A DNA stretch of 23,469 nt from Bacillus salipaludis (lineage in GTDB: Bacteria; Bacillota; Bacilli; Bacillales_B; DSM-18226), in NCBI RefSeq assembly GCF_004358205.1, contig NZ_SMYO01000030.1, positions 1-23,469 on the forward strand, in the 5' to 3' direction. Shown here piece after piece: positions 4,092 through 14,801 of this stretch. The notes under the pieces are model-generated. The model did no database searches and had not been told where the DNA came from. It worked only from the letters and a program-made list of their open reading frames with translations. The translations under genes were made by a program, and so were the position numbers. The stretch's first letter is position 1, and the number at the start of each line of letters is the position of its first letter.

Positions 4092-5393
4092 ATGGAAGGA
4101 AAATTAAGAAAAAATATACCTACTCTAATCATTTTAATTATTGCAGGTGAAATGATTTATACATTGCCATATTTTCGAAACTATTATTATGATGTATTTC
4201 TAAAGGACTTTCACTTAACAAATACACAAATGGGTTCGCTCGGAAGTGTGTTTGGAATTACTTGTTTGATTTCCTATATCTTTGCAGGTTATGTGGCAGA
4301 TCGTTGGAAAACGAAACACTTATTGACGCTCTCCTTAATCGTGACAGGAGCTCTAGGCTTTACCTTACTATTGTATCCCCCTTACTCTGTATTGGTCTTA
4401 ATTTATGGAGCTTGGGGATTTACATCCATCCTGACCTTTTGGGTAGCATTAATAAAAGCCGTCCGTTCGTTAGCAAATGAAAATGAACAAGGAAAAGCAT
4501 TCGGCTTTTTTGAAGGCGGACGCGGTGCTGCCAAAGTAATCGAATCCGCTTTGGTTTTAGGACTCTTCGCCTTTGTTTCAAAGCAGCTGAGTGACAAGGT
4601 CGCATTGTCCACAGTAATTATTTTCTATTCCGTGATGTGTATTCTTTTAGGGATCATGGTTATGCTGCTTTACAAGAGTCCTGAACAAAACAACAGCAGT
4701 GATCAAGGTAACGAAAAGGATCATACAAAATTTAATTGGGATATCCTTTGGAAGATTCTAAAAATGCCAACAACCTGGCTGGCAGCCGTTCTTATTTTAA
4801 CATCTTATGCAATGATTAATAGTTTCTATTATATTACTCCTTATGCACATGCAGCATTTGGTGCTTCCACCATCATTGCCGCAGCACTGGGTTACTTTTC
4901 ACAATACTGCCGCCCAGTCGGAAGTTTCTCCTCCGGAATCATCGGGGATCGAATTGGGATTTCCAATATGGTCATCATTGCCTATAGTTTATTGGCAGCC
5001 GGCTTAGTCGCTCTCATTCTTTTGCCCGGAAAGCCTTCTCTTATCCTGTTACTGTTAGTCTTTATCGCCGTTGTTTATGTAGCCATGTATGCCTTACAGG
5101 CAACGCACTTCGCGATTTTGGTGGAAGGAGACTATCCCGTTGAAACAACAGGAACCGTCGCTATGCCATTAATGATCATCGGGTATAGCGGGGAAATCTT
5201 TATGCCGATTATTGCCGGAGCTTGTTTGGACCACTGGGATGGTACCACTGGTTATAAGGTATTATTCGCCATTTTATTAGGCTTAACGATCTTTGGATTG
5301 ATTACCGCTGTCATTTGGCAAAGAGTAACGAAAGAAAAACGAAAAGAGATTGCCCTTCAGAGAAAAATAATGAAAGAAAAAAAAGCAAGTTAG
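4092..5393 (+). CDS. Major facilitator superfamily transporter
   Basis: A 433-residue inner-membrane protein with about 12 hydrophobic helices in two halves of six, split by a polar cytoplasmic loop (about residues 195-215, rich in Asn, Asp and Lys). After helix 2 the loop YVADRWKTKH fits the MFS signature (G-x-x-D-R-x-x-x), with a related IGDRIGISN in the second half. The C-terminus is strongly basic and cytoplasmic. The substrate cannot be read from sequence; linkage to the CocE-type hydrolase and a TetR regulator suggests an organic acid, ester or drug-like compound. The start is ATG 4092 with GGGGA 7 nt upstream. The frame is open to 4020, but that part lies in an intergenic repeat. Confidence 0.88.
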   Translation: MEGKLRKNIPTLIILIIAGEMIYTLPYFRNYYYDVFLKDFHLTNTQMGSLGSVFGITCLISYIFAGYVADRWKTKHLLTLSLIVTGALGFTLLLYPPYSVLVLIYGAWGFTSILTFWVALIKAVRSLANENEQGKAFGFFEGGRGAAKVIESALVLGLFAFVSKQLSDKVALSTVIIFYSVMCILLGIMVMLLYKSPEQNNSSDQGNEKDHTKFNWDILWKILKMPTTWLAAVLILTSYAMINSFYYITPYAHAAFGASTIIAAALGYFSQYCRPVGSFSSGIIGDRIGISNMVIIAYSLLAAGLVALILLPGKPSLILLLLVFIAVVYVAMYALQATHFAILVEGDYPVETTGTVAMPLMIIGYSGEIFMPIIAGACLDHWDGTTGYKVLFAILLGLTIFGLITAVIWQRVTKEKRKEIALQRKIMKEKKAS

Positions 5394-5404
5394 AATGAGC
5401 CCCT

Positions 5405-5460
5405 AAAATGAAAAGAAGCTGGCGATAAAGTTTTGTTTTTCGCCAGCTTTTTCATTTTGA
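5405..5460 (+). terminator. Terminator after the MFS gene
   Basis: A 9-bp perfect stem, AGCTGGCGA (5417-5425) with TCGCCAGCT (5440-5448), is extended outward by A-rich and T-rich arms and followed by TTTTTCATTTT. The A-rich 5' arm makes it potentially bidirectional. Confidence 0.85.
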
Positions 5461-5510
5461 ACCAGTTCCACTACGGATCATTATTACTTCGGCTTCTGAG
5501 CCAATAGTTT

Positions 5511-5519
5511 GGTATAATT
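5511..5519 (+). promoter_or_regulatory. Extended -10 promoter for the TetR gene
   Basis: TGGTATAAT (5511-5519) is a perfect extended -10 (TG-N-TATAAT) without a good -35. Transcription would start near 5526, just before the short MITE, which would then lie in the 5' untranslated region of the regulator gene. Confidence 0.4.
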
Positions 5520-5541
5520 TTTCTATCATCTTTTTTAAAAA

Positions 5542-5618
5542 GACTATGTTAAAGAACATTGTTGAATTTTTAGCCCTGTTGATTGGAGCGGAAATCAACA
5601 GCCAAAGTTAACATAGCC
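5542..5618 (+). mobile_element. Short (77-bp) internally deleted MITE copy
   Basis: The ends match those of the longer elements at 17330-17517 and 20682-20866: GACTATGTTAAAGAAC on the left and GTTAACATAGCC on the right, an imperfect terminal inverted repeat. The middle reads GTTGATTGGAGCGGAAATC, exactly what the long copy would become after deletion between its two GGAGCGGAA direct repeats. I see no clear target duplication, so the insertion may be old. It sits between the predicted promoter and the start of the TetR gene. Confidence 0.7.
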
Positions 5619-5685
5619 CTTAGATCTCACTTCGCCTAAGAACGAAATAACTTATATGGATATAAAATTTGTAAGGAGTATAACG

Positions 5686-6375
5686 ATGAAAAAAAAGGAA
5701 ATACAATTGAGCCGCATGTGGAAATACTTTGTCGACGCAACGGCTGAAATTATCGAAGAAGAAGGTTTAGAGAATGTAACGATCAGGAAAGTTGCGGATA
5801 AGGCAGGTTATAATAGCGCCACCATTTATAACTATTTTTCTGAAATCTCCCATCTGATCTTTTTCGCATCCATGAAATTCTTGAAATCTTACACGGATGA
5901 GGTAGCTGTTTATATTGAAAAAGGAAAAGATCCCATTGAAAAGTACTTGTTAGCCTGGGAATGTTTTTGTATTCACTCCTTTAAGCAGCCACAAATTTTT
6001 AATGCGGTATTTATTATGGATTTAGGGGATCAACCCGAAAAGCTGCTTGAAGAATATTATAAAATCTATCCTGCTGATTTGATTAACATTCCTGAGGAGT
6101 TAAAGATTATTCTCTTTGAACGGAACGTGTCAAAACGGGGGCGGTCCTTCTTAGAAAATGCACTAAGAGAGGGATATATCAAAGAAGAAAACGTTGATGC
6201 GATTAATGAATTAACCATTTTAATCTGGCAAGGAATGTTTACAAATATCTTAAATAATCGCAAAAGCTATGAGTTTCAGGAGGCAGTGAAAATCACCATG
6301 AACTATATTACAGAGATTGTTCACAACGCGAATCTTTTTTCTTTTAAAAAATATGATCATACGAATCAGCAGTAA
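5686..6375 (+). CDS. TetR/AcrR family transcriptional regulator
   Basis: A 229-residue one-component repressor. The N-terminal helix-turn-helix covers about residues 14-55, with the signature VTIRKVADKAGYNSATIYNY (31-50). The rest is an all-helical ligand-binding and dimerisation domain without recognisable specificity. The start is ATG 5686, with AAGGAG (5673-5678) 7 nt upstream; the in-frame ATG at 5656 lacks such a site. It follows the MFS transporter on the same strand but behind a terminator, so it is transcribed separately. It probably controls the hydrolase/transporter pair, although I found no clear palindromic operator there. The stop lies 3 bp before a long perfect hairpin repeat. 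Confidence 0.88.
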   Translation: MKKKEIQLSRMWKYFVDATAEIIEEEGLENVTIRKVADKAGYNSATIYNYFSEISHLIFFASMKFLKSYTDEVAVYIEKGKDPIEKYLLAWECFCIHSFKQPQIFNAVFIMDLGDQPEKLLEEYYKIYPADLINIPEELKIILFERNVSKRGRSFLENALREGYIKEENVDAINELTILIWQGMFTNILNNRKSYEFQEAVKITMNYITEIVHNANLFSFKKYDHTNQQ

Positions 6376-6378
6376 AAG

Positions 6379-6430
6379 CCATAGGGACGGTTCTGGTGGC
6401 TCCAAAAAGCCAGCAGAACCGTCCCTATGG
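6379..6430. repeat. GGGACGGTTC hairpin repeat, copy 1
   Basis: A 17-bp perfect inverted repeat, CCATAGGGACGGTTCTG (6379-6395) with its complement at 6414-6430, and an inner stem TGGCT/AGCCA around the loop. It fills the gap between the converging TetR and histidine kinase genes and ends on the base next to the kinase stop codon. There is no T-run, but a hairpin of this size could protect both messages or help end transcription. A second copy lies at 14687-14757. Confidence 0.85.
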
Positions 6431-7912
6431 TTACCCCATCGGCAAAAACACAATAAAGATGGTTCCGGTCCCGAGCTTGCTCTCGACCTCAATTCTTCCT
6501 CCATGTGCCTCTACAATAGATTTAGTAATCGATAATCCAAGGCCTGCTCCTCCCGTTCTTCTTGCACGGGAAACATCTGCACGATAAAAACGGTCGAAAA
6601 TGAGCGGCAGACTTTCTTCGCTCACCCCTGTGCCATTGTCTTCTACGGAAAGCTTTGCAAACTGATTAGATGCTTCAAGCGAAACCTTAATCACCCCGGA
6701 TACTGGATCCGTATGCTGGACAGCATTATTAAATAGATTAAGAATCACTTGCTTTAACTTATCTGATTCATAGAATCCAACAACATCTTGAGCAAGCTGA
6801 AATTGAATCGCGCGATCTCCCGCCAAAACGTTTAGTTGAGGTTCCATCTCTTCGATTAACATGGAAAGATTGCTCTCTTTAGCCTGTAATTCAGGAGCAC
6901 GGTCCAGCTTCGTAAGCAATAATAAGTCCTCTACTAATTTAATAATCCGCCTTGATTCCCCCTGCATGCTATTTAATGCTTTGTACAGCTGTTCTGGACG
7001 ATTGGCAGCTCCCCTTAATAAAACCTCAATGAATCCGGAAATGGAAGTAAGCGGTGTTCGCAGCTCATGAGAGGCATCCGCGATGAAACGTCTCATTTGT
7101 TCTTTCGTTTCTCTTTCATACTCAAAGGATTTTCCCAATCTCGCTAACATGTCATTAAACGACTCCGCTAAACGATCAATCTCTTCCTGCCCCTGTTCAA
7201 CCGGAAGGCGCTCTTCTAAGTTTCCGGCATTGGTTTTCTTCACCGCTTTCACAATCCGTGATAACGGCACAAGGGTTTGGTTCAGAACGCGCAAGTAAAT
7301 TCCAAGTCCACCAGCTAAAGCTAAAGCGGAAAGAATGGAAAAAATCAATAATTGCTGAAGAAGTACATGCTTGAGCGGTGCCGTATTCGTTCCCAGCTGC
7401 AGGATTCCGGAGATTTGATCCTGGAAACCTCCCCCCGCTGGCTTAAACACAATCAATTGCTCGACTCCCTTTGAATTCGTTTCGATACGATAGGAAACAT
7501 CCTGATGAGTTGAAAAATCCTGCAAAATATTTTGATATTCCTTTTTAGAAAGTATTGGAGCTTGGATACTACTATTTTCTAAAAGGTCTTGAAAATTGCC
7601 GTTATTCTTAATCAGCGCAAGCGACATATCCTGTAAAAAGAAAAACTTATGATTTGGCCCCGGGAAAGTGTCCCCGTTGTCATGAGGCTTTTCATTATCA
7701 TCTGGTAAATCTACATTTAAACCAATATCTTTTGGCAATGACATCAGCCTTGCACTTAGCGTTTCTGCCTCATTCTGAAACAGGAAATCCTTCATAACCA
7801 AGTACTGCGTAAGCCCAATCGCCAGTAAAATAAAAGCCAAGATGACTAACGTCCGTGCAAGAAGTTGATAGCGTAAGGAACGGGAAAAAAATAAATTCTT
7901 TACCCCCTTCAT
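6431..7912 (-). CDS. Sensor histidine kinase (HAMP, HisKA, HATPase)
   Basis: A 493-residue membrane sensor kinase. Helix 1 (about residues 20-40) and helix 2 (about 186-208) flank a 145-residue extracytoplasmic sensor domain with an acidic, Asn-rich patch near 70-90. A HAMP linker (about 209-262) leads to the HisKA domain with phospho-acceptor His282 in DASHELRTPLTS. The ATP-binding domain has an N box (LNLFNNAVQHT), G1 (VEDNGTGVS) and G2 (GGAGLGLSITKSIVEAHGG). It overlaps the upstream response regulator by 4 nt (ATGA), so the pair is translationally coupled. The overall type is close to Bacillus YkoH/CssS-like EnvZ-class kinases. The signal is unknown; the neighbourhood suggests envelope stress or wall state. 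Confidence 0.95.
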   Translation of the reverse strand: MKGVKNLFFSRSLRYQLLARTLVILAFILLAIGLTQYLVMKDFLFQNEAETLSARLMSLPKDIGLNVDLPDDNEKPHDNGDTFPGPNHKFFFLQDMSLALIKNNGNFQDLLENSSIQAPILSKKEYQNILQDFSTHQDVSYRIETNSKGVEQLIVFKPAGGGFQDQISGILQLGTNTAPLKHVLLQQLLIFSILSALALAGGLGIYLRVLNQTLVPLSRIVKAVKKTNAGNLEERLPVEQGQEEIDRLAESFNDMLARLGKSFEYERETKEQMRRFIADASHELRTPLTSISGFIEVLLRGAANRPEQLYKALNSMQGESRRIIKLVEDLLLLTKLDRAPELQAKESNLSMLIEEMEPQLNVLAGDRAIQFQLAQDVVGFYESDKLKQVILNLFNNAVQHTDPVSGVIKVSLEASNQFAKLSVEDNGTGVSEESLPLIFDRFYRADVSRARRTGGAGLGLSITKSIVEAHGGRIEVESKLGTGTIFIVFLPMG

Positions 7913-8595
7913 GAGAAATCTACCCTGTAGCCTGAACCTCTTATCGTACGAATCACCTGGTGCTGCTTATCCCCCAGCTTATCTCGTAAAGAGCGAATAT
8001 ACACTTCCACAATATTCTCTTCCCCAAGAAAATCATAGCCCCAAACCCGATCTAAGATGATGGCTTTGCTCATCACGATCCCGTGGTTCATCACTAAGAA
8101 TTTGAGAAGCTCATATTCAGTTGGAGAAAGCTCCAAAATTCGGCCGTTATACGTAAATTCTTTTCTTCGGTCGTCCAGCTTAAAGGGTCCATACGTGACT
8201 TCATTAAATAGATTCGGGAATTGATTGCGCAGCCGGGCCCGAATTCTAGCCAATAATTCTTCAAAACTAAATGGCTTTATCACATAATCATCGGCTCCGA
8301 TGGTTAACCCCTTCACCCGGTCTTCCACCTCATCTTTGGCCGTAAGCATAATAATGGAGGTTTGCGCACCGCTTTTTCGAATCATTTTGCACACTTCAAA
8401 CCCATCCATTCCAGGCATCATCACGTCTAATATCGCAATATGCGGCTCAAATTCCTTCGCTACATTAATCGCCATCAACCCATCTAATGCTGTTTTTACC
8501 TCATACCCTTCCCCTGTAAGACCCATCTCTAAAAATTGCAAAATATGTGGTTCGTCATCGACGAGTAAGATTTTAATACCTTCTTTAGCATTCAT
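7909..8595 (-). CDS. OmpR/PhoB-family response regulator (kinase partner)
   Basis: A 228-residue regulator. The receiver domain (about 7-120) has the acidic pocket DD at 13-14, phospho-acceptor Asp57 in ILDVMMPG, the Thr in MLTAK and Lys107 in VIKPFSF. The C-terminal winged helix (about 130-228) has the LSPTEYELLKFLVMNHG and IRTIRGSGYRVD blocks of OmpR/PhoB proteins. The open frame starts at 8601, but GGAGGT directly abuts that ATG; the third codon, ATG at 8595, has ideal 6-nt spacing and is preferred. It is first in the operon with the histidine kinase. A TTCAG 11-bp repeat array lies upstream, so autoregulation is likely. It is a close paralog of the regulator at 8879-9562. Confidence 0.95.
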   Translation of the reverse strand: MNAKEGIKILLVDDEPHILQFLEMGLTGEGYEVKTALDGLMAINVAKEFEPHIAILDVMMPGMDGFEVCKMIRKSGAQTSIIMLTAKDEVEDRVKGLTIGADDYVIKPFSFEELLARIRARLRNQFPNLFNEVTYGPFKLDDRRKEFTYNGRILELSPTEYELLKFLVMNHGIVMSKAIILDRVWGYDFLGEENIVEVYIRSLRDKLGDKQHQVIRTIRGSGYRVDFS

Positions 8596-8641
8596 GATCA
8601 TACCTCCAGATCCCCTAATAGATATAGTTTCGTCTATTTAG

Positions 8642-8679
8642 CTGAAAATTAGCTGAATGAAAACTGAATATCGGCTTAA
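8642..8679 (-). promoter_or_regulatory. TTCAG operator array upstream of the regulator-kinase operon
   Basis: On the minus strand TTAAG (8679-8675), TTCAG (8668-8664), TTCAG (8657-8653) and TTCAG (8646-8642) follow each other at exact 11-bp steps, one helical turn, as for PhoB/PhoP-type regulators. At the -10 position used by the three plus-strand arrays this copy has only GAAACT; TATATC lies 5 bp further on. It probably mediates autoregulation. Confidence 0.65.
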
Positions 8680-8749
8680 TCGATATAAAAATGTCGGAAT
8701 CGTTATGTAAATACCTATTATACTATGAATCAACTAGTTTGCTGAATTT

Positions 8750-8803
8750 TTCAGGAAACCTTCAGCTTTCCTTCAAGTCTAATTCAGGTTGGCCGTGCAC
8801 AAT
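8750..8803 (+). promoter_or_regulatory. TTCAG operator array and promoter of the second regulator
   Basis: TTCAG, TTCAG, TTCAA and TTCAG start at 8750, 8761, 8772 and 8783, exactly 11 bp apart. Ten bases after the last one is a -10 CACAAT (8798-8803). There is no consensus -35; the last half site covers that position, as in promoters activated by OmpR/PhoB proteins. Transcription would start near 8810. Confidence 0.7.
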
Positions 8804-8831
8804 ACAGACATGAACAAAACGGGGAGGAGAC

Positions 8832-8900
8832 ATGAAAATGGGGAGAAAGAAAATAACATCCTTAGGAGTAGCGAAACGATGCGGACAACTAAAAATATAA
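8832..8900 (+). CDS. 22-codon upstream ORF overlapping the second regulator
   Basis: A short frame beginning MKMGRKKITS and ending with TAA at 8898-8900. It has a strong GGGGAGGAG ribosome site (8821-8829) and ends 22 nt inside the regulator gene in another frame. It may be a leader peptide coupling translation of the regulator. Alternatively it may be the remnant of a duplicated gene: promoter, leader and first codons resemble those of the small protein gene at 12234. Whether it is translated is unknown. Confidence 0.35.
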   Translation: MKMGRKKITSLGVAKRCGQLKI

Positions 8901-9562
8901 AAATACTACTAGTGGATGATGAATTATCGATTTTGCAATTTTTAGAGCTCGGATTAATAGAGGAAGGATTCGAAGTAAGGACCGCTCAAGACGGTGCATC
9001 AGCCATCGACTTAGCCAAAGATTTTGAACCACATGTTGTCATCCTCGATGTCATGATGCCGGGAATGAGTGGGATTGAAGCATGCAAGATTCTTAAAAAA
9101 TTAGGAAATCTGGCTGTTATTATGCTGACGGCAAAGGGGGACGAGGAGGATCGAATGAAAGGACTCGATCTAGGTGCCGACGATTATATGGTCAAGCCCT
9201 TTAGCTTTGGAGAACTGGTGGCGCGAATCCATGCAAGAATAAGAAATCAATTTCCCATTCTTTCAGAAAATATCGCAATCGGTCCTTTTGAAATTGATGA
9301 CCGTCGGAGGGAAATTCGTTTCAATGAAACAGGTCTGAAACTTTCACCAACGGAATATGAACTCCTTCGATTATTGGTGATTAATCACGGAATGGTCCTA
9401 AGCAAAGCAACTATTTTAAAGAAGGTGTGGGGCTATGACGCTGGTGGTGAAGAAAATATTGTGGAAGTTTATATCCGCCTATTGAGAGAAAAGCTTCATG
9501 ATCATAAACGTACCTTAATCCGGACAATCCGTGGTGCCGGTTATCGGCTGGATCTAGCATGA
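8879..9562 (+). CDS. Second OmpR/PhoB-family response regulator (paralog)
   Basis: A 227-residue regulator very similar to the one at 7909-8595; by eye about two thirds of residues are identical. Asp57 (ILDVMMPG), the DD pocket and Lys106 (VKPFSF) are kept, so it should be phosphorylatable. The winged-helix domain is also conserved (LSPTEYELLRLL, IRTIRGAGYRLD), so both proteins should recognise the same TTCAG sites. There is no second kinase gene; it may share the kinase at 6431-7912. The open frame reaches a TTG/GTG region near 8789, but that lies inside the promoter. ATG 8879 with TAGGAG (8863-8868) upstream is the plausible start. The GT-C glycosyltransferase gene follows after 52 bp, probably in one operon. 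Confidence 0.92.
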   Translation: MRTTKNIKILLVDDELSILQFLELGLIEEGFEVRTAQDGASAIDLAKDFEPHVVILDVMMPGMSGIEACKILKKLGNLAVIMLTAKGDEEDRMKGLDLGADDYMVKPFSFGELVARIHARIRNQFPILSENIAIGPFEIDDRRREIRFNETGLKLSPTEYELLRLLVINHGMVLSKATILKKVWGYDAGGEENIVEVYIRLLREKLHDHKRTLIRTIRGAGYRLDLA

Positions 9563-9614
9563 TAAGTAAAATAATTGCTGACCTCTTAAAAGGCAGCAAA
9601 AGGAAAGGAATCAT

Positions 9615-11879
9615 ATGATGGAAAAAACAAATCAATCCGAACCATTGCAAACGAGTAATATGAATGTAAGAGGCCGGCCAGGAAATCCGCCATGGGAACG
9701 GCCTGCTCTGTTGACCCTATTGCTGTTGACAGTAATCGCATATATATGGGGGCTTGGCCAATCAGGCTGGTCCAATTCCTTTTACAGTGCCGCAGTACAA
9801 GCGGGTACGAAAAGTTGGAAGGCGTTCTTCTTCGGATCCATTGATGCATCTAATTTTATTACCGTCGATAAGCCCCCTGCTTCCTTGTGGATCATGGAAT
9901 TATCGGCGCGAATATTCGGCCTGAATTCCTGGAGTATGCTTGTTCCAGAAGCACTGATGGGTGTCGCTTGTGTATGGGTCCTTTACCTGACGATTCGCCG
10001 CTGGTTCAGTGCCGGTGCAGCGCTAATCGCGGGAACAGTCCTTGCAATGACACCGGTGGCCGCGCTCATGTTCCGTTTTAATAATCCTGATGCGCTCCTA
10101 GTTCTGTTACTTACAACAAGTGCCTATGCCTTTACAAGAGCACTTGAGGAAGGGAAAACAAAATGGCTCGTGTGGGCCTCTGTCTTCATTGGCTTTGGCT
10201 TTTTGACTAAAATGATGGCCGCATTCCTGATCATCCCTGTGTTTGTAGTCGTCTATCTGTTATTTGCCCCTGTATCGGTACGCCGGCGACTAGTGCAAAT
10301 GGTGATCAGTGCGATTACGGTTGTGGTTTCAGCAGGTTGGTGGGTGGCGATTGTTCAGCTTGTCCCGGCTGCGAACCGTCCATATATCGGGAGTTCTCAG
10401 AAAAACAGCATTCTGGACTTGATTTTTGGATACAACGGTTTAGGCCGGCTTACCGGGAATGAGTCCGGTATGGGCAGCCCAAAAGCTGCGACAGGAGTTT
10501 CAACTGCCAATGATATGGTAAATCAAGCGGCCAATATGGGCAGACCCGGCGGCGCCATGGGCGGGAGTTTCAGTGGCAGCACTGGTCTGACACGTCTATT
10601 TAACTCCGAAATGGGAGGCCAGATTTCTTGGCTGATTCCTGCGGCACTGATTCTTTTAATCGTTGCGGTTTGGCTTGTCCGCCGGAACTGGAAAAGTGAT
10701 CGCACCATTCCTGCCATGCTTTTGTGGGCTGGAACGTTCTTCGTGACCGGTATTGTGTTCAGCTATAGTGCGGGAACAATTCACCCGTATTACACAGTTG
10801 CCCTGGCTCCAGCTATTGGTGCCATCATCGGGATTGGTGTTGAAGTTCTTTGGACGAGACGTGAACAATTGGCTGCCCGTTTAGGGTTAACGGCGACTAT
10901 TGCAGCGACAGCAGTTTGGTCTTATATTTTACTTGACCGTACTTCAACCTGGTACCCGTGGCTGCGTGTGGCCACCCTAGTGATCGGGTTGGTTGCTGCT
11001 ATTACGATGATGATCGCACCAAAGCTTCGGCGAAATTTAATGATGGGTGCTGCCGCAGCTGGATTGGCTGCCTGCCTGGCTGGTCCGTTTGCCTATACAG
11101 TCCAGACCATTGCGACACCACATACTGGATCGATGCCTTCTGCAGGTCCTTCGACGGGTGGCGATGGATTCCCTGGCCGCTTTGGCGGAGGTCAAATGCC
11201 GCCTGGGGCTAATTCAAGTAATTCGTCTACAGGACAATCCGGGAATTCCGGTTTTGGCGGGCAAATGTCTCCTGGGAACAATTCAGGTAATTCGTCTACA
11301 GGACAAACTGGAAACTCCGGCTTTGGCGGGCAAATGCCTCCTGGGAACAGCTCAACTAATTCTTCCCCAGGACAGTCCGGCTTTGGTGGTCAAATGCCAC
11401 CTTCATCCGCAGGAGGAACCAGGAACGCTAAACAGGGTGGTCCTGATGACAACGCCACACCTGGCAAGAATATCGTAAAATTGTTTAAAAAGGATGCCAC
11501 GAAATACACCTGGGTGGCTGCAACGATCGGTTCACAGTCTTCGGCTCCATATCAACTAGCGACAGGTGCGCCCATCATGGACATCGGCGGCTTTACCGGC
11601 AGTGATCCGACCCCTACCCTTGCCCAGTTTAAGAAATACGTGAGTGATGGAAAGATTCATTATTTTATTAACTCCGGCAGAGGCGGCATGGGCGGCGGCA
11701 TGTCCACTGATAATACGAATGGAAAAACAAATGGAAGCACTTCTAATGGTAACTTCCAAAGAGGACCAATGGGCGGTGGTTCTAATTCAGAAATCACCAA
11801 TTGGGTTCAAAACAATTTTAAGACAACAACAGTCGATGGTGTGACTCTCTATGATTTGACTCAACCGAAATCTAAATAA
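9615..11879 (+). CDS. GT-C membrane glycosyltransferase, PMT/GT39 (YkcB/ArnT-like)
   Basis: A 754-residue polytopic membrane protein. After a short cytoplasmic N-terminus, helix 1 (about 31-48) leads to the first outer loop with the family block WSNSFYSAAV, SIDASNF and VDKPPAS; Asp77 and Asp85 are candidate catalytic or sugar-lipid-binding residues. About a dozen further helices run to residue 495. Next comes an outer Gly/Ser/Asn/Pro-rich segment (about 500-600) with repeated GFGGQMPPG units, then a folded C-terminal domain ending near 754. Family members move a sugar from undecaprenyl phosphate to an acceptor on the outer face of the membrane. The layout closely resembles B. subtilis YkcB. 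The start ATG 9615 has AAAGGAA 4 nt upstream. It probably uses the lipid-linked sugar made by the GT2 at 13266-14228. The acceptor is unknown. Confidence 0.88.
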   Translation: MMEKTNQSEPLQTSNMNVRGRPGNPPWERPALLTLLLLTVIAYIWGLGQSGWSNSFYSAAVQAGTKSWKAFFFGSIDASNFITVDKPPASLWIMELSARIFGLNSWSMLVPEALMGVACVWVLYLTIRRWFSAGAALIAGTVLAMTPVAALMFRFNNPDALLVLLLTTSAYAFTRALEEGKTKWLVWASVFIGFGFLTKMMAAFLIIPVFVVVYLLFAPVSVRRRLVQMVISAITVVVSAGWWVAIVQLVPAANRPYIGSSQKNSILDLIFGYNGLGRLTGNESGMGSPKAATGVSTANDMVNQAANMGRPGGAMGGSFSGSTGLTRLFNSEMGGQISWLIPAALILLIVAVWLVRRNWKSDRTIPAMLLWAGTFFVTGIVFSYSAGTIHPYYTVALAPAIGAIIGIGVEVLWTRREQLAARLGLTATIAATAVWSYILLDRTSTWYPWLRVATLVIGLVAAITMMIAPKLRRNLMMGAAAAGLAACLAGPFAYTVQTIATPHTGSMPSAGPSTGGDGFPGRFGGGQMPPGANSSNSSTGQSGNSGFGGQMSPGNNSGNSSTGQTGNSGFGGQMPPGNSSTNSSPGQSGFGGQMPPSSAGGTRNAKQGGPDDNATPGKNIVKLFKKDATKYTWVAATIGSQSSAPYQLATGAPIMDIGGFTGSDPTPTLAQFKKYVSDGKIHYFINSGRGGMGGGMSTDNTNGKTNGSTSNGNFQRGPMGGGSNSEITNWVQNNFKTTTVDGVTLYDLTQPKSK
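11184..11410 (+). repeat. In-frame tandem repeats in the GT-C gene
   Basis: Units beginning GGQMPPG or GGQMSPG start at 11187, 11259, 11328 and 11388, so the steps are 72, 69 and 60 bp (24, 23 and 20 residues). The last unit is partial. They encode a flexible Gly/Asn/Ser/Gln linker on the outer side of the membrane. All steps are multiples of three, so changes in copy number keep the frame. Confidence 0.8.
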
Positions 11880-11898
11880 TGTGGTTGGAAACGAGCAA

Positions 11899-11940
11899 GG
11901 ATTGAGCCCTGGATAAACAGGGCTCGATCCTTTTTATTTT
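11899..11940 (+). terminator. Terminator after the GT-C gene
   Basis: A 13-bp stem (11899-11911 with 11918-11930, one G-T pair), a 6-nt loop and a T-rich tail (TTTTTATTTT). It ends the regulator-glycosyltransferase operon. Confidence 0.92.
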
Positions 11941-12015
11941 GCTTTTCTAAATTCGTTATCATAAAAATTGTTGTTTTTACACTAAGAAAGCTACTGTATG
12001 CGTGCGTTAACAACT

Positions 12016-12092
12016 TTTATCAGCGAATTTAGACCCTTTATCAGCGAATTGAAAGGTTTTATCAGTGAATTCGGCCTGTTTATCAGCGAATC
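12016..12092 (+). repeat. Four 21-bp-spaced TTTATCAG repeats
   Basis: TTTATCAGCGAATT-like units start at 12016, 12037, 12058 and 12079, exactly 21 bp apart (two helical turns). Fourteen or so bases of each unit are conserved and the remaining seven vary. They lie between a terminator and the next TTCAG promoter. No protein-coding reading is evident. The function is unknown. Confidence 0.8.
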
Positions 12093-12131
12093 AAGAAAAA
12101 TCACCATTTTCCAAAAAACATTTCATTATTT

Positions 12132-12185
12132 TTCAGGAAACCTTCAGCTTACGCTCATGCTGAATTCAGATTGAAAATCCATAAT
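12132..12185 (+). promoter_or_regulatory. TTCAG operator array and promoter of the small protein/ferric reductase unit
   Basis: TTCAG, TTCAG, CTCAT and TTCAG start at 12132, 12143, 12154 and 12165, 11 bp apart. After 10 bp comes a -10 CATAAT (12180-12185). The geometry matches the arrays at 8750 and 13176; the third half site is degenerate. The bases after the -10 (AATACAGACAT) are shared with the 8750 copy. Confidence 0.7.
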
Positions 12186-12233
12186 ACAGACATAGACAAA
12201 AAGAAGTCATTTAAATACAAGGAGGCAACAAAA

Positions 12234-12527
12234 ATGAATAAAAAGAAATTTACTTCTTGGAGTGTAAGCTTTGCCAGTCTAGCATTCGTCGCTGGCATGA
12301 TCTCATACCTTGGGATCAACAAAGATACCATAAACAAAACAACTGCCACCACTCAAGCTCAGGTCACAACACAAAGTCCAACCCAGAGTGGAAGTTCTTC
12401 GATCACCTATGAACTCCCAAACCGAAACAGAATCAGCGATTCCAAGCAGTCTAATACTCAATCTGTTTCACAAGACCAATCGTTTAGCCAGCATGGCGGT
12501 TTCGATACGACGACTGGAGGAACCTGA
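12234..12527 (+). CDS. Small secreted or membrane-anchored Ser/Thr/Gln-rich protein
   Basis: A 97-residue protein that I cannot assign to a family. The N-terminus MNKKKFTSW is basic, followed by a hydrophobic stretch (about residues 10-27) with small residues, so it is a signal peptide or membrane anchor. The remaining 70 residues are low-complexity, rich in Thr, Ser, Gln and Asn, and probably extracellular and disordered. It ends with a GGFDTTTGGT tail. AAGGAGG (12219-12225) lies upstream of ATG 12234. It is first in a unit with the ferric-reductase-like gene 36 bp downstream, under a TTCAG promoter. Its many Ser/Thr residues would make it a possible acceptor for the neighbouring glycosylation system; this is only a guess. 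Confidence 0.75.
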   Translation: MNKKKFTSWSVSFASLAFVAGMISYLGINKDTINKTTATTQAQVTTQSPTQSGSSSITYELPNRNRISDSKQSNTQSVSQDQSFSQHGGFDTTTGGT

Positions 12528-12563
12528 TCATGAGGACGAAATGGAAACGAGGAGGAAAATAAA

Positions 12564-13094
12564 ATGGAGACATTTGAATGGTATGCGATTCGGGCAACCG
12601 GAACGATAGCTTATCTATTATTATATGCGGCCGTTCTTACTGGACTGTATTCCATGGTCCAGAAGAAACGAAAAAAGAAAGTAAACAACCTACTTCATCT
12701 TCATGAAGTACTGTCAGATTGGTCGTTAATTCTTACAGGGGGACACTTAGGAATTTTGCTAATAGATTCTTATCTCCCCTTTAAACTGTCTGAAATCTTG
12801 ATTCCATTTGCCAGCGGCTATGAAACGATCTCCATGGCGATGGGTTCAATTGCGACTTATTTTTTAATCTTAACGATCATTACGTCAAAATTCCGCAATA
12901 AAATTGGGTATCAAAGATGGCGAAAACTGCATGCGCTAAATCCCATACTCTATATACTCGTTACGTTACATGGATTATTGAGCGGTACGGACTTCCAAGG
13001 AACGATTTTGGCGGCCGTGAATATCGCACCCGTCATCATCTTTGGGGGGATGCTGTTTTCGAGTAAGAAAAAGCTAACAGCTGCACAAGGATAA
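12564..13094 (+). CDS. Ferric-reductase-like di-heme transmembrane protein
   Basis: A 176-residue membrane protein with about five to six helices. His47 and His61 are 14 residues apart in one helix; His123 and His136 are 13 apart in another. This is the two-heme spacing of the ferric reductase/NADPH oxidase membrane domain (gp91phox His101/115 and His209/222). A further His45 lies in LLHLHE. There is no flavin or NAD domain, so electrons must come from a partner or the quinone pool, as for MsrQ-type proteins. The start ATG 12564 has GAGGAGG 8 nt upstream. It is cotranscribed with the small secreted protein and ends in a strong terminator. Its link to the envelope locus is notable and its electron acceptor unknown. 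Confidence 0.85.
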   Translation: METFEWYAIRATGTIAYLLLYAAVLTGLYSMVQKKRKKKVNNLLHLHEVLSDWSLILTGGHLGILLIDSYLPFKLSEILIPFASGYETISMAMGSIATYFLILTIITSKFRNKIGYQRWRKLHALNPILYILVTLHGLLSGTDFQGTILAAVNIAPVIIFGGMLFSSKKKLTAAQG

Positions 13095-13128
13095 ATGGAT
13101 TGCTTCCGCCAGTAAAAATCAATTTTTC

Positions 13129-13157
13129 AAAAAAGGGGGTTCATCCCCCCTTTTTTA
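13129..13157 (+). terminator. Terminator after the ferric-reductase-like gene
   Basis: Stem AAAAAAGGGGG (13129-13139) pairs with CCCCC and a T-run (13146-13156) around a short TTCAT-containing loop. Confidence 0.9.
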
Positions 13158-13175
13158 TGGATTCCAGCAACTAAT

Positions 13176-13229
13176 TTCAGGAAACCTTCAGCTGATCTTC
13201 AAGCTGATTTCAGGTTGCAGGCCCATAAT
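13176..13229 (+). promoter_or_regulatory. TTCAG operator array and promoter of the GT2-GtrA operon
   Basis: TTCAG, TTCAG, TTCAA and TTCAG start at 13176, 13187, 13198 and 13209, 11 bp apart. CATAAT (13224-13229) follows after 10 bp, the same geometry as at 8750 and 12132. No -35 box is present. Confidence 0.72.
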
Positions 13230-13265
13230 GAATTCAATGAGATATTTCGTGAAGGAGTGATAGAA

Positions 13266-14228
13266 ATGAATCAAGTTGTTCAATATTCAATCGTTGTACC
13301 CGTGTACAACGAAGAAGCAGTGATTCATGAAACCTACCGTAGATTGACCGAGGTAATGAGATCGACAGGAGAATCTTACGAGCTTCTCTTTGTGAACGAC
13401 GGCAGCCGTGATCGCACAGCCGACATCATAAAGGAATTTAGTGAAAAGGACCCCGCTGTTATTTTAGTAGATTTTTCAAGGAATTTCGGCCACCAAATTG
13501 CCATCACAGCAGGAATGGATCATTCAAAAGGAAGGGCCGTAGTCGTGATTGATGCCGACTTGCAGGATCCGCCCGAGCTTATTTTGGAAATGATTGGAAA
13601 ATGGAAACAAGGCTACGATGTGGTGTATGCAAAACGGACGAAACGAAAAGGAGAAACATTTTTAAAAAAATACACTGCCAAACTGTTTTACCGCTTTTTA
13701 CATTCGATGACAGATATCGACATCCCGCTTGATACAGGAGATTTTCGTTTATTGGACCGTAAAGTATGTGATCAAATGAATAACCTGCAAGAAAAAAACC
13801 GTTTTGTCCGCGGGTTAGTGAGCTGGGTTGGGTTTAAACAAATTGCCGTCGAGTATGAACGGGACGAGCGTCTGGCGGGCGAATCTAAATACCCGCTCAA
13901 GAAAATGCTGAAATTGTCGATGGATGGCATTACCTCCTTTTCCTATAAACCATTAAAACTAGCAAGCTTTGCTGGTGCGGGTTTATCGGTCATCGGCTTT
14001 TTCTACTTGTTCATTGTCCTATACTTAAAACTGTTTACCCATACTACCATCACAGGTTGGTCCTCCCTGATTGTGATTCAGTTGCTTTTTAACGGGTTTA
14101 TACTTTTTATTCTCGGAATCACTGGTGAATATATCGGCCGAATCTATGACGAATCGAAACATCGTCCACTCTATATTGTTCAAGAGATCTATCAAAAGAA
14201 GCCAGAAAAGAAAATGATATACAGATGA
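13266..14228 (+). CDS. GT2 glycosyltransferase, CsbB/YkcC/GtrB type
   Basis: A 320-residue membrane-associated enzyme expected to move a sugar from a nucleotide donor to undecaprenyl phosphate on the inner face of the membrane. The GT-A domain starts IVVPVYNEE, with VNDGSRD (43-49) and the metal-binding DADLQDPP (Asp96, Asp98), the signature of dolichol-phosphate-mannose synthase-like GT2 enzymes. Two C-terminal helices (about 232-255 and 266-288) match the GtrB/CsbB arrangement. The frame can be read from a TTG at 13215, but that lies in the promoter; ATG 13266 with AAGGAGTGA upstream is the start. It overlaps the flippase gene by 4 nt. The sugar cannot be predicted. Confidence 0.93.
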   Translation: MNQVVQYSIVVPVYNEEAVIHETYRRLTEVMRSTGESYELLFVNDGSRDRTADIIKEFSEKDPAVILVDFSRNFGHQIAITAGMDHSKGRAVVVIDADLQDPPELILEMIGKWKQGYDVVYAKRTKRKGETFLKKYTAKLFYRFLHSMTDIDIPLDTGDFRLLDRKVCDQMNNLQEKNRFVRGLVSWVGFKQIAVEYERDERLAGESKYPLKKMLKLSMDGITSFSYKPLKLASFAGAGLSVIGFFYLFIVLYLKLFTHTTITGWSSLIVIQLLFNGFILFILGITGEYIGRIYDESKHRPLYIVQEIYQKKPEKKMIYR

Positions 14229-14617
14229 CCAAGCGATGGCTTTCTTTTATAAAATTTGCAATTGTGGGTGCGGTCAATACCTCGATTGATTTTAGCGTCT
14301 ATGCATTCTTGACTTGGTTCAATGTAAACTACATCGTCGCTCAATGTATTTCGTACAGTGCCGGGGTGTTAAACAGCTATATCATGAACCGAAAATGGAC
14401 ATTTGAACAAAAAGGAAAAGGAAGTAAGCGAGAATTTTTCACTTTTCTTGGTGTGAACCTGATTACTTTGGTTATGACTTCTTTTTTATTAACGATGTTT
14501 TATAAGCATTTGCGACTTCCATTATGGATCAGTAAGTTACTCGTCACAGCAGCAAGTGTTGGAATGAATTATATTGGAACGAAAAGAATGGTATTTACTA
14601 GGGGGGTTCAACCATGA
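14225..14617 (+). CDS. GtrA/GtcA family lipid-linked sugar flippase
   Basis: A 130-residue membrane protein with four helices, typical of the GtrA family in length and pattern. It starts with the basic MTKRWLSFIKFAIVGAVNT block, and helix 1 contains the small GAVNT turn. ATG 14225 overlaps the GT2 stop (ATGA), so the two are coupled. Family members move the undecaprenyl-phosphate sugar across the membrane, here linking the GT2 to the GT-C enzyme at 9615. It ends inside another ATGA overlap with a very short frame. Confidence 0.92.
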   Translation: MTKRWLSFIKFAIVGAVNTSIDFSVYAFLTWFNVNYIVAQCISYSAGVLNSYIMNRKWTFEQKGKGSKREFFTFLGVNLITLVMTSFLLTMFYKHLRLPLWISKLLVTAASVGMNYIGTKRMVFTRGVQP

Positions 14618-14643
14618 AGATTAAAAAAGCAGTCAACCATTGA
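14614..14643 (+). pseudogene. Vestigial 9-codon ORF after the flippase gene
   Basis: ATG 14614 overlaps the flippase stop by 4 nt and has an AGGGGGG ribosome site, as for a coupled next gene. The frame reads MKIKKAVNH and stops at 14641-14643. This looks like the start of a lost operon member, cut short by a deletion or mutation near the hairpin repeat 40 bp further on. I cannot identify the lost gene, and a chance overlap is possible. Confidence 0.3.
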
Positions 14644-14686
14644 AGCAGCCCTTATGAGGGAGGACTTAAAGCATATTGTTCTGATA

Positions 14687-14757
14687 CCATAGGGACGGTT
14701 CTCTTGGTCTACTTTTTTATCTTTCTGACAAAAAAAGCCGACAGAACCGTCCCAAAG
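14687..14757. repeat. GGGACGGTTC hairpin repeat, copy 2
   Basis: CATAGGGACGGTTCT (14688-14702) pairs with AGAACCGTCCC (14743-14753). The arms are the same as in the copy at 6379-6430, but the middle is different and longer. It lies between the converging envelope and ABC transporter genes. Confidence 0.75.
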
Positions 14758-14764
14758 GTCCAAT

Positions 14765-14801
14765 TAAAAAGCAGCCCCCTAAAAAATTAGGAAAGCTGCC
14801 T
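14765..14801 (-). terminator. Terminator of the ABC transporter operon
   Basis: On the minus strand GGCAGCTTTCCTAA pairs imperfectly with TTAGGGGGCTGC and is followed by TTTTT. It begins about 11 bp after the stop codon of the ATP-binding protein gene. Confidence 0.8.

Follow-up and report, generated by a model that had tools for sequence, protein, structure and literature searches.

Introduction

The closest described systems come from Bacillus subtilis, where, according to a 2021 paper (PMC7961091), the response regulator YclJ activates ykcBC and yngABC. The module comprises the GT-C glycosyltransferase YkcB, the GT2 glycosyltransferase YkcC, the GtrA-type protein YngA and the UGPase YngB, and it is proposed to add a sugar, under low oxygen, to an envelope component given in that text as unknown (PMC7961091). 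Two other papers place ykcBC in the YrkP regulon as well and ykoST under YkoGH (PMC5836110), and list YkcB and YkcC as part of the YrkP regulon (PMC10128005). Here we analyse 23,469 nucleotides of Bacillus salipaludis DNA (contig NZ_SMYO01000030.1, positions 1 to 23,469; the window), in which genes for the same kind of module lie among four arrays of TTCAG direct repeats, next to two genes for OmpR/PhoB-type response regulators (RR1 and RR2). The arrays are real and conserved, and most likely form the operator code of an undescribed clade of OmpR-type regulators for envelope genes.

Direct repeats close to the -10 hexamer, without a good -35 hexamer, are the layout of PhoB-type activators, and the box of B. 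subtilis PhoP consists of TT(A/C)ACA repeats. The YclJ box is reportedly TTCATA (said to go back to Ogura in 2010), and ykoST is a GT-C plus GT2 pair.

Four arrays of TTCAG boxes in the window

Each of four transcription units is preceded by one array of four pentamer boxes, every step being 11 base pairs (bp). Array A (8642..8679, minus strand), upstream of the operon of RR1 and a histidine kinase, reads TTAAG, TTCAG, TTCAG, TTCAG from 8679 to 8642 (19/20 letters matching). Array B (8750..8787, plus strand), upstream of RR2 and a GT-C gene, and array D (13176..13213, plus strand), upstream of GT2 and GtrA genes, both read TTCAG, TTCAG, TTCAA, TTCAG (19/20 each), and array C (12132..12169, plus strand), upstream of genes for a small protein and a Ferric_reduct-like protein, reads TTCAG, TTCAG, CTCAT, TTCAG (18/20). 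An initial annotation, made from the letters of the window, had described four matching TTCAG operators with a strict 11-bp period upstream of four separate units. Number, period and position were confirmed; the match holds for the array pattern (18–19/20) but not for every single box, since 12 of the 16 are exact (75 of 80 letters).

The pattern (TTCAG-N6)x4 at 17/20 or better occurred at arrays A–D and at no other place in the window. A Markov control of 2000 first-order sequences gave a mean of 0.005 places at the same threshold, with any place at all in 0.45% of the sequences, which bears out the earlier judgement that a chance origin is very unlikely. When all 1024 pentamers were tried, only TTCAG and its complement gave four places at 18/20 or better, and among periods from 7 to 20 places at 17/20 or better appeared with period 11 only. 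The looser pair pattern TTCAGN6TTCAG with two mismatches was not enriched in the window (35 against 27 expected), so the signal resides in the four-box form. Arrays B, C and D have 40–43 of 54 letters in common, first spacer included, with spacers 2 and 3 diverging and the boxes kept; the boxes of array A are set in different spacers.

Promoter layout

At the three plus-strand arrays a -10 hexamer follows box 4 after exactly 10 bp (N10), as the initial annotation had stated: CACAAT at 8798..8803 for array B, CATAAT at 12180..12185 for array C and CATAAT at 13224..13229 for array D. The reported absence of a -35 also held, as a sigma-70 scan of positions 8400–14800 found no promoter with a -35 at any of the four arrays. 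With the -10 in its usual place, the position of the -35 coincides with box 3. Like OmpR/PhoB operators, the arrays are direct repeats one helical turn apart, 5' of the -10, and the proposed OmpR/PhoB activator layout is supported by the distance to the -10, which is conserved in relatives. Among 161 unique arrays (counted outside loci L081–L111, L240, L241, L246, L299 and L301; L and G numbers are ours for loci and genomes), a -10-like hexamer stood at N10 in 98 at 4/6 or better and in 70 at 5/6 or better, against 28 and 10 for the next-best offsets. Base frequencies computed from the 98 arrays give the consensus TTCAG-CAAAC(T/A)-TTCAG-N6-TTCAG-N6-TTCAG-N10-TATAAT, in which box 2 is the most strict and box 3 the most loose.

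Association of the array with a regulator clade

RR1 (7909..8601, minus strand) and RR2 (8879..9562, plus strand), a paralogue with 64% identity and no adjoining kinase gene, both matched PF00072 (Response_reg, the receiver) and PF00486 (Trans_reg_C, the winged-helix DNA-binding domain) above the cut-off. Apart from the window's own entry, the named sequences closest to RR1 come from Bacillus sp. AFS076308 and Neobacillus drentensis (94% identity), which makes the source Neobacillus-like. In 23 loci of relatives with 62–75% identity (L001–L023; Paenibacillus, Brevibacillus, Ectobacillus, Desulfosporosinus, Moorella, Desulforamulus and others), an array stood before the regulator gene at 15 and before the YkcB-like gene at 10, some loci having both; 21 loci are covered in this way, and L008 and L023 have no array. 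Across 66 clade loci, three of them repeats (L246 and L301 of L006, L299 of L017; all positive), the 400 bp upstream of the regulator gene contained an array, on either strand, in 54 (51 of 63 distinct loci). It was oriented toward the regulator itself in 43 of the 66, and otherwise only toward the divergent gene. The reversed pattern matched at 0/66 clade loci, and the array itself at 0/57 loci of other OmpR-type regulators with 36–49% identity, mostly from other genera and phyla.

The same association was seen by genome, allowing two mismatches or fewer. In 299 genomes of one order, the array was present in 12/13 clade-positive and 11/286 clade-negative genomes (Fisher p 2e-14), and in 398 Bacilli genomes, with one clade gene per positive genome, in 55/73 and 25/325, respectively (Fisher p 3e-32); these p values take no account of kinship, and a genome listed in both sets bears the same number in each. 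The thirteenth clade-positive genome of the first set (G119) has an array at 17/20 before its YkcB-like gene. Where a link between the arrays and the adjacent regulators had been offered as conjecture, tracking of the RR1/RR2 clade by locus and by genome now argues strongly for it: related loci do not lack the array, and in relatives it is not common apart from these genes. Judged from these comparisons, RR1 with its kinase is the array's conserved partner.

Of the 44 genomes in the genus to which G133 belongs, 7 carry a clade member. Genome G187 (locus L285), one of the 11 clade-negative genomes with a match in the first set, shares its arrays with G213, and no clade gene was found in it, through loss or an assembly gap.

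Recognition helices of RR1 and RR2

The recognition helix, (E/D)(E/D)N-IVEVYIRSLR, is near invariant across 63 clade members. The nearest solved relative of RR1 is Mycobacterium tuberculosis PhoP; in its structural description, Asn212, Val213, Glu215, Ser216, Tyr217 and Tyr220 read TCACAGC, and tandem dimers with an 11-bp period are extendable to tetramers (PMC4832192). RR1 retains Asn212 and Glu215, the contacts of which cover CAGC, and Tyr217, and carries Val213 to Ile, Ser216 to Val and Tyr220 to Ser changes. Val213 and Tyr220 touch the 5' half of the box; Tyr217 does so too although it is kept, which makes the fit of helix to box imperfect. On this one alignment, RR1 is consistent with a reader of TTCAGC. 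The helix of RR2 differs from that of RR1 by Ser to Leu and by Asp to Glu, the latter a conservative change seen widely in the clade; RR2 probably reads the same boxes. In the tree it groups within the RR1 clade, where its long branch has no settled place, and among the 398 Bacilli genomes its best relative was 71% identical, with no closer orthologue found.

Genes behind the arrays in relatives

The YkcB-like gene was preceded by an array in 14/14 relative loci that hold both this gene and a clade regulator, and in 0/36 YkcB-like loci without a clade regulator nearby. In 50 loci with fuller flanks (the window and 49 from relatives, including L285), the clade regulator gene lay behind an array at 34, a YkcB-like GT-C gene at 14, a PepSY protein gene at 9 and an FtsX permease gene at 5; YceI proteins (2), GT2 (2) and HlyD (1) were rarer, none was assigned in 9, and two loci had no array. 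These gene kinds were assigned by similarity, with Pfam on examples.

The initial annotation had spoken of a local regulon; in relatives the arrays are not local only, as many lie before other envelope genes elsewhere in the genome. In a search of 21 of the 23 close genomes (those of L004 and L011 excluded), all 21 had matches at three mismatches or fewer, 122 in total against 6 for the reversed control. Of 61 downstream open reading frames (ORFs) listed, 50 were scanned for domains: six carried VTC (polyphosphate polymerase-like; one each in the genomes of L185, L187, L203, L209, L220 and L231), four were chemoreceptors, three NAGPA and two DedA-like, seven looked secreted and had DUF2680, SHOCT or Cu_amine_oxidN1 (one below the cut-off), ten had no match, and the remainder were single or paired kinds.

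In Paradesulfitobacterium (L005, 6425–9925) arrays precede genes for an HtrA-like protease and an ApbE-like protein, and the stretch after the latter resembles the Ferric_reduct-like protein of the window (29%); an extracytoplasmic redox branch resembling the array C unit is possible.

A second type of box was seen at other YkcB-like genes. Among the 37 promoters of YkcB-like genes from other Bacillales, 12 have TTCATA and TTCA(T/C)A 11 bp apart (by eye), with the -10 again at N10 in those checked by eye. At 11 of these 37 loci the adjoining regulator is 35–38% identical to RR1 or RR2, has a different recognition helix and is not identified as YclJ; ten of the 12 loci with a TTCATA pair adjoin such a different two-component regulator (35–38% identity).

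Other features of the window

The histidine kinase gene (6431..7912, minus strand; HAMP, HisKA, HATPase_c) is the second gene of the RR1 operon. Its extracytoplasmic domain (residues 34–189) was modelled with a predicted local distance difference test score (pLDDT) of 84.5 as a small, PAS/PDC-like fold; the full-length model was of mixed quality (predicted template-modelling score 0.43). The signal of the kinase was sought through this fold, and Foldseek returned only weak matches, with no confident one (best E 2.3e-3, template-modelling score below 0.5, among the 50 matches listed).

Between array B and RR2, overlapping the RR2 start, positions 8832–8900 hold an open frame of 22 codons (MKMGRKKITSLGVAKRCGQLKI) with a strong ribosome-binding-like GGGGAGGAG; possibly it encodes a leader peptide. 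The gene for the YkcB-like GT-C glycosyltransferase (9615..11879, plus strand; PMT_2 and YkcB_C) contains 2.9 copies of a 69-bp repeat (11179–11380) encoding a Gly/Asn/Ser-rich stretch. The RR2–GT-C unit ends at a terminator-like hairpin of 15 pairs with a T tail (11897..11932, plus strand). Immediately 5' of array C lie 3.6 copies of the 21-bp repeat TTTATCAGCGAATTCAGACCC (12016–12091). The unit behind array C encodes a small protein (12234..12527, plus strand) that has no Pfam match and, by eye, an N-terminal hydrophobic stretch and an S/T/Q-rich composition, and a Ferric_reduct-like transmembrane protein (12564..13094, plus strand; PF01794, E 7e-9), which the initial annotation had called a di-heme protein, a role that stays a prediction. 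A second terminator-like hairpin (13135..13149, plus strand) separates this unit from that of array D; the terminator scan as a whole gave 6 hairpins against 6.3 in shuffled sequences, so there is no overall excess. Behind array D follow the genes for a GT2 glycosyltransferase (13266..14228, plus strand; Glycos_transf_2), YkcC/CsbB-like by domain and operon and not by a named sequence, and for a GtrA-type membrane protein (14225..14617, plus strand; GtrA_DPMS_TM). No UGPase was found among the window genes scanned; in relatives a UGPase gene adjoins GT2/GtrA at L331 (by Pfam) and L334 (by eye).

Discussion

We consider it likely that the arrays are the operators of the RR1 clade, and that phosphorylated RR1 binds the four half-sites and activates its own operon together with the glycosylation module. 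Four protomers of RR1, phosphorylated in answer to a signal that its kinase would perceive, would line up head to tail on (T)TTCAGC half-sites one helical turn apart. Box 3 would take the place of the -35 and box 4 would lie between it and the -10, so that RR1 could bring RNA polymerase to promoters without a -35 of their own. The targets would be the RR1 operon, the genes for lipid-linked glycosylation (YkcB-like GT-C, GT2 and GtrA) and the accessory pair of membrane proteins behind array C. RR2, encoded first in the GT-C operon, would probably join the circuit as its second regulator and read these boxes too.

Several observations weigh against this reading. The hexamer at N10 of array A (8626..8631, minus strand) is GAAACT, a poor -10. 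No array at 17/20 or better was found near the regulator in 12 of the 66 clade loci, nor at two mismatches or fewer in 18 of the 73 regulator-positive Bacilli genomes. Among the 25 regulator-negative genomes with a match, ten share a near-identical TTAAG/TTCAG/TTTAG/TTCAG array, so that a related box is probably used there by some other regulator. The counts come from related genomes and are not independent, the 57 control regulators are drawn mostly from more foreign taxa, and the reversed pattern itself matched in 5/299 and 9/398 genomes (the latter counted by eye). In the relatives, 11 of 108 genome-wide site rows fall inside long ORFs, and some of these sites may therefore be non-functional. 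Finally, the module genes of the window have their closest relatives at loci without TTCAG arrays: GT2 at the TTCATA-box loci L143–L146 (82–83%, against 65–74% for array loci), GtrA at the same loci (62–63% where whole, against 35–41%) and GT-C, among the loci examined, at L173 (69%), which has neither an array nor a clade neighbour.

The ten regulator-negative genomes with the common array (G346, G378, G445, G455, G494, G503, G519, G527, G550 and G636) are of about 2 Mb, and their array is like TTAAGGTTCCTTTCAGAAAAACTTTAGGAAACTTTCAG. At L173 (genome G062, 5255–7420) the gene for the GT-C relative comes after one for a GT2-like protein that is only 41% identical.

Part of this evidence could be read in favour of a different owner of the arrays. 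RR2 rather than RR1 might work at all four, with RR1 limited to its own operon; RR2 is of the same clade, keeps the recognition helix but for two substitutions and opens the operon behind array B. Yet the same arrays stand before the same kinds of gene where one clade gene was found, with a kinase next to it, and RR2 has no adjoining kinase gene and a long branch, which leaves its sole ownership unlikely. An owner outside the clade, such as PhoP, WalR, ResD or a YclJ-like regulator, with RR1 as an incidental neighbour, seems very unlikely. The TTCATA pairs, which share the geometry and precede YkcB-like genes elsewhere, suggest that related regulators use related boxes, and the matches in clade-negative genomes point the same way; against this, no array was found at the other OmpR-type loci compared, the presence of the array goes with that of the clade both by genome and by locus, and six genomes (G161, G304, G133, G213, G262 and G305) hold the clade and TTCAG arrays together with a YkcB-like promoter that is free of arrays.

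The arrays might also act in the opposite direction, RR1 lying across the -35 region and blocking RNA polymerase, as the stretch that a -35 would occupy is overlapped by boxes 3 and 4. We hold this to be highly improbable: there is no -35 to block, and a fixed N10 over many genera is needed for activation and not for repression. The letters shared by arrays B, C and D, first spacer included, would suit a dispersed repeat without a regulatory role, but spacers 2 and 3 vary while the boxes stay, array A has other spacers, and the arrays of other genera are mostly intergenic and keep a constant distance to the -10, so that this explanation can be almost dismissed.

The closest relatives of the window's GT2, GtrA and GT-C lie at loci without TTCAG arrays, and these genes may therefore have changed regulator in this lineage. 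We put forward, tentatively, that an old Bacillota regulon with the four-box TTCAG code runs the YkcB–YkcC–GtrA kind of module in parallel to the YclJ system and in its place, that the window records a recent change of hands, and that RR2 was gained to form a feed-forward or titration loop. Different regulator clades would then have reached the same kind of module through operators of the same geometry and different letters.

Comparison with known systems

The window adds a regulon that is new but belongs to a known kind, and no new mechanism. A clade of regulators that had no name gains a specific, predicted operator, and the TTCAG code marks control of the module in relatives from Paenibacillus, Brevibacillus, Bacillus and Desulfosporosinus, which yields a list of co-regulated candidates for a module with an envelope target described as unknown. 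Our literature search, with most subscription journals outside its scope, found no response regulator with an operator made of TTCAG direct repeats.

The promoters of B. subtilis PhoP and other PhoB-type activators have direct repeats about one turn apart near the -10 and no good -35, as here. The half-site is a different one, TTCAG in the window and TT(A/C)ACA in the PhoP box, a distinction the initial annotation had drawn and the boxes bear out; B. subtilis PhoP was rejected as owner of the arrays on this ground. The M. tuberculosis PhoP operator is likewise a direct repeat with an 11-bp period, and the Asn, Glu and Tyr of its helix align with those of RR1; its sequence, two copies in the form TCACAGC-N4-TCACAGC, has only CAGC in common with the arrays, and the 5' half differs. 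YrkP–YrkQ and Clostridioides difficile HexR–HexK are, by their description, two-component systems for envelope sugar or lipid genes (PMC10128005), to which the window system can be likened in that respect.

In genome G705 the clade member is 73% identical to RR1 and the next OmpR-type regulators at most 46%, a comparison that included no sequence named YclJ; near 4.14 Mb, 9 kb separate the clade member from another OmpR-type regulator. YkoG came into consideration as the B. subtilis counterpart on account of ykoST, reported under YkoGH; the gene ykoG presumably lies at a place other than this clade member, and YkoG is at most a possible counterpart.

The nearest parallel in function is the YclJ–YclK regulon, which has the same kind of target module; GT-C, GT2 and GtrA are all present in the window. 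The operators differ, four TTCAG boxes standing in the window where the YkcB-like promoters of other Bacillales have two of the TTCATA type, which is said to be the YclJ box. Two types of box in one geometry offer a natural case for a change of specificity among OmpR-type regulators. The system of the window works like that of YclJ without being identified with it, and would, by analogy, activate an envelope-glycosylation regulon as reported for YclJ in B. subtilis, through a different box.

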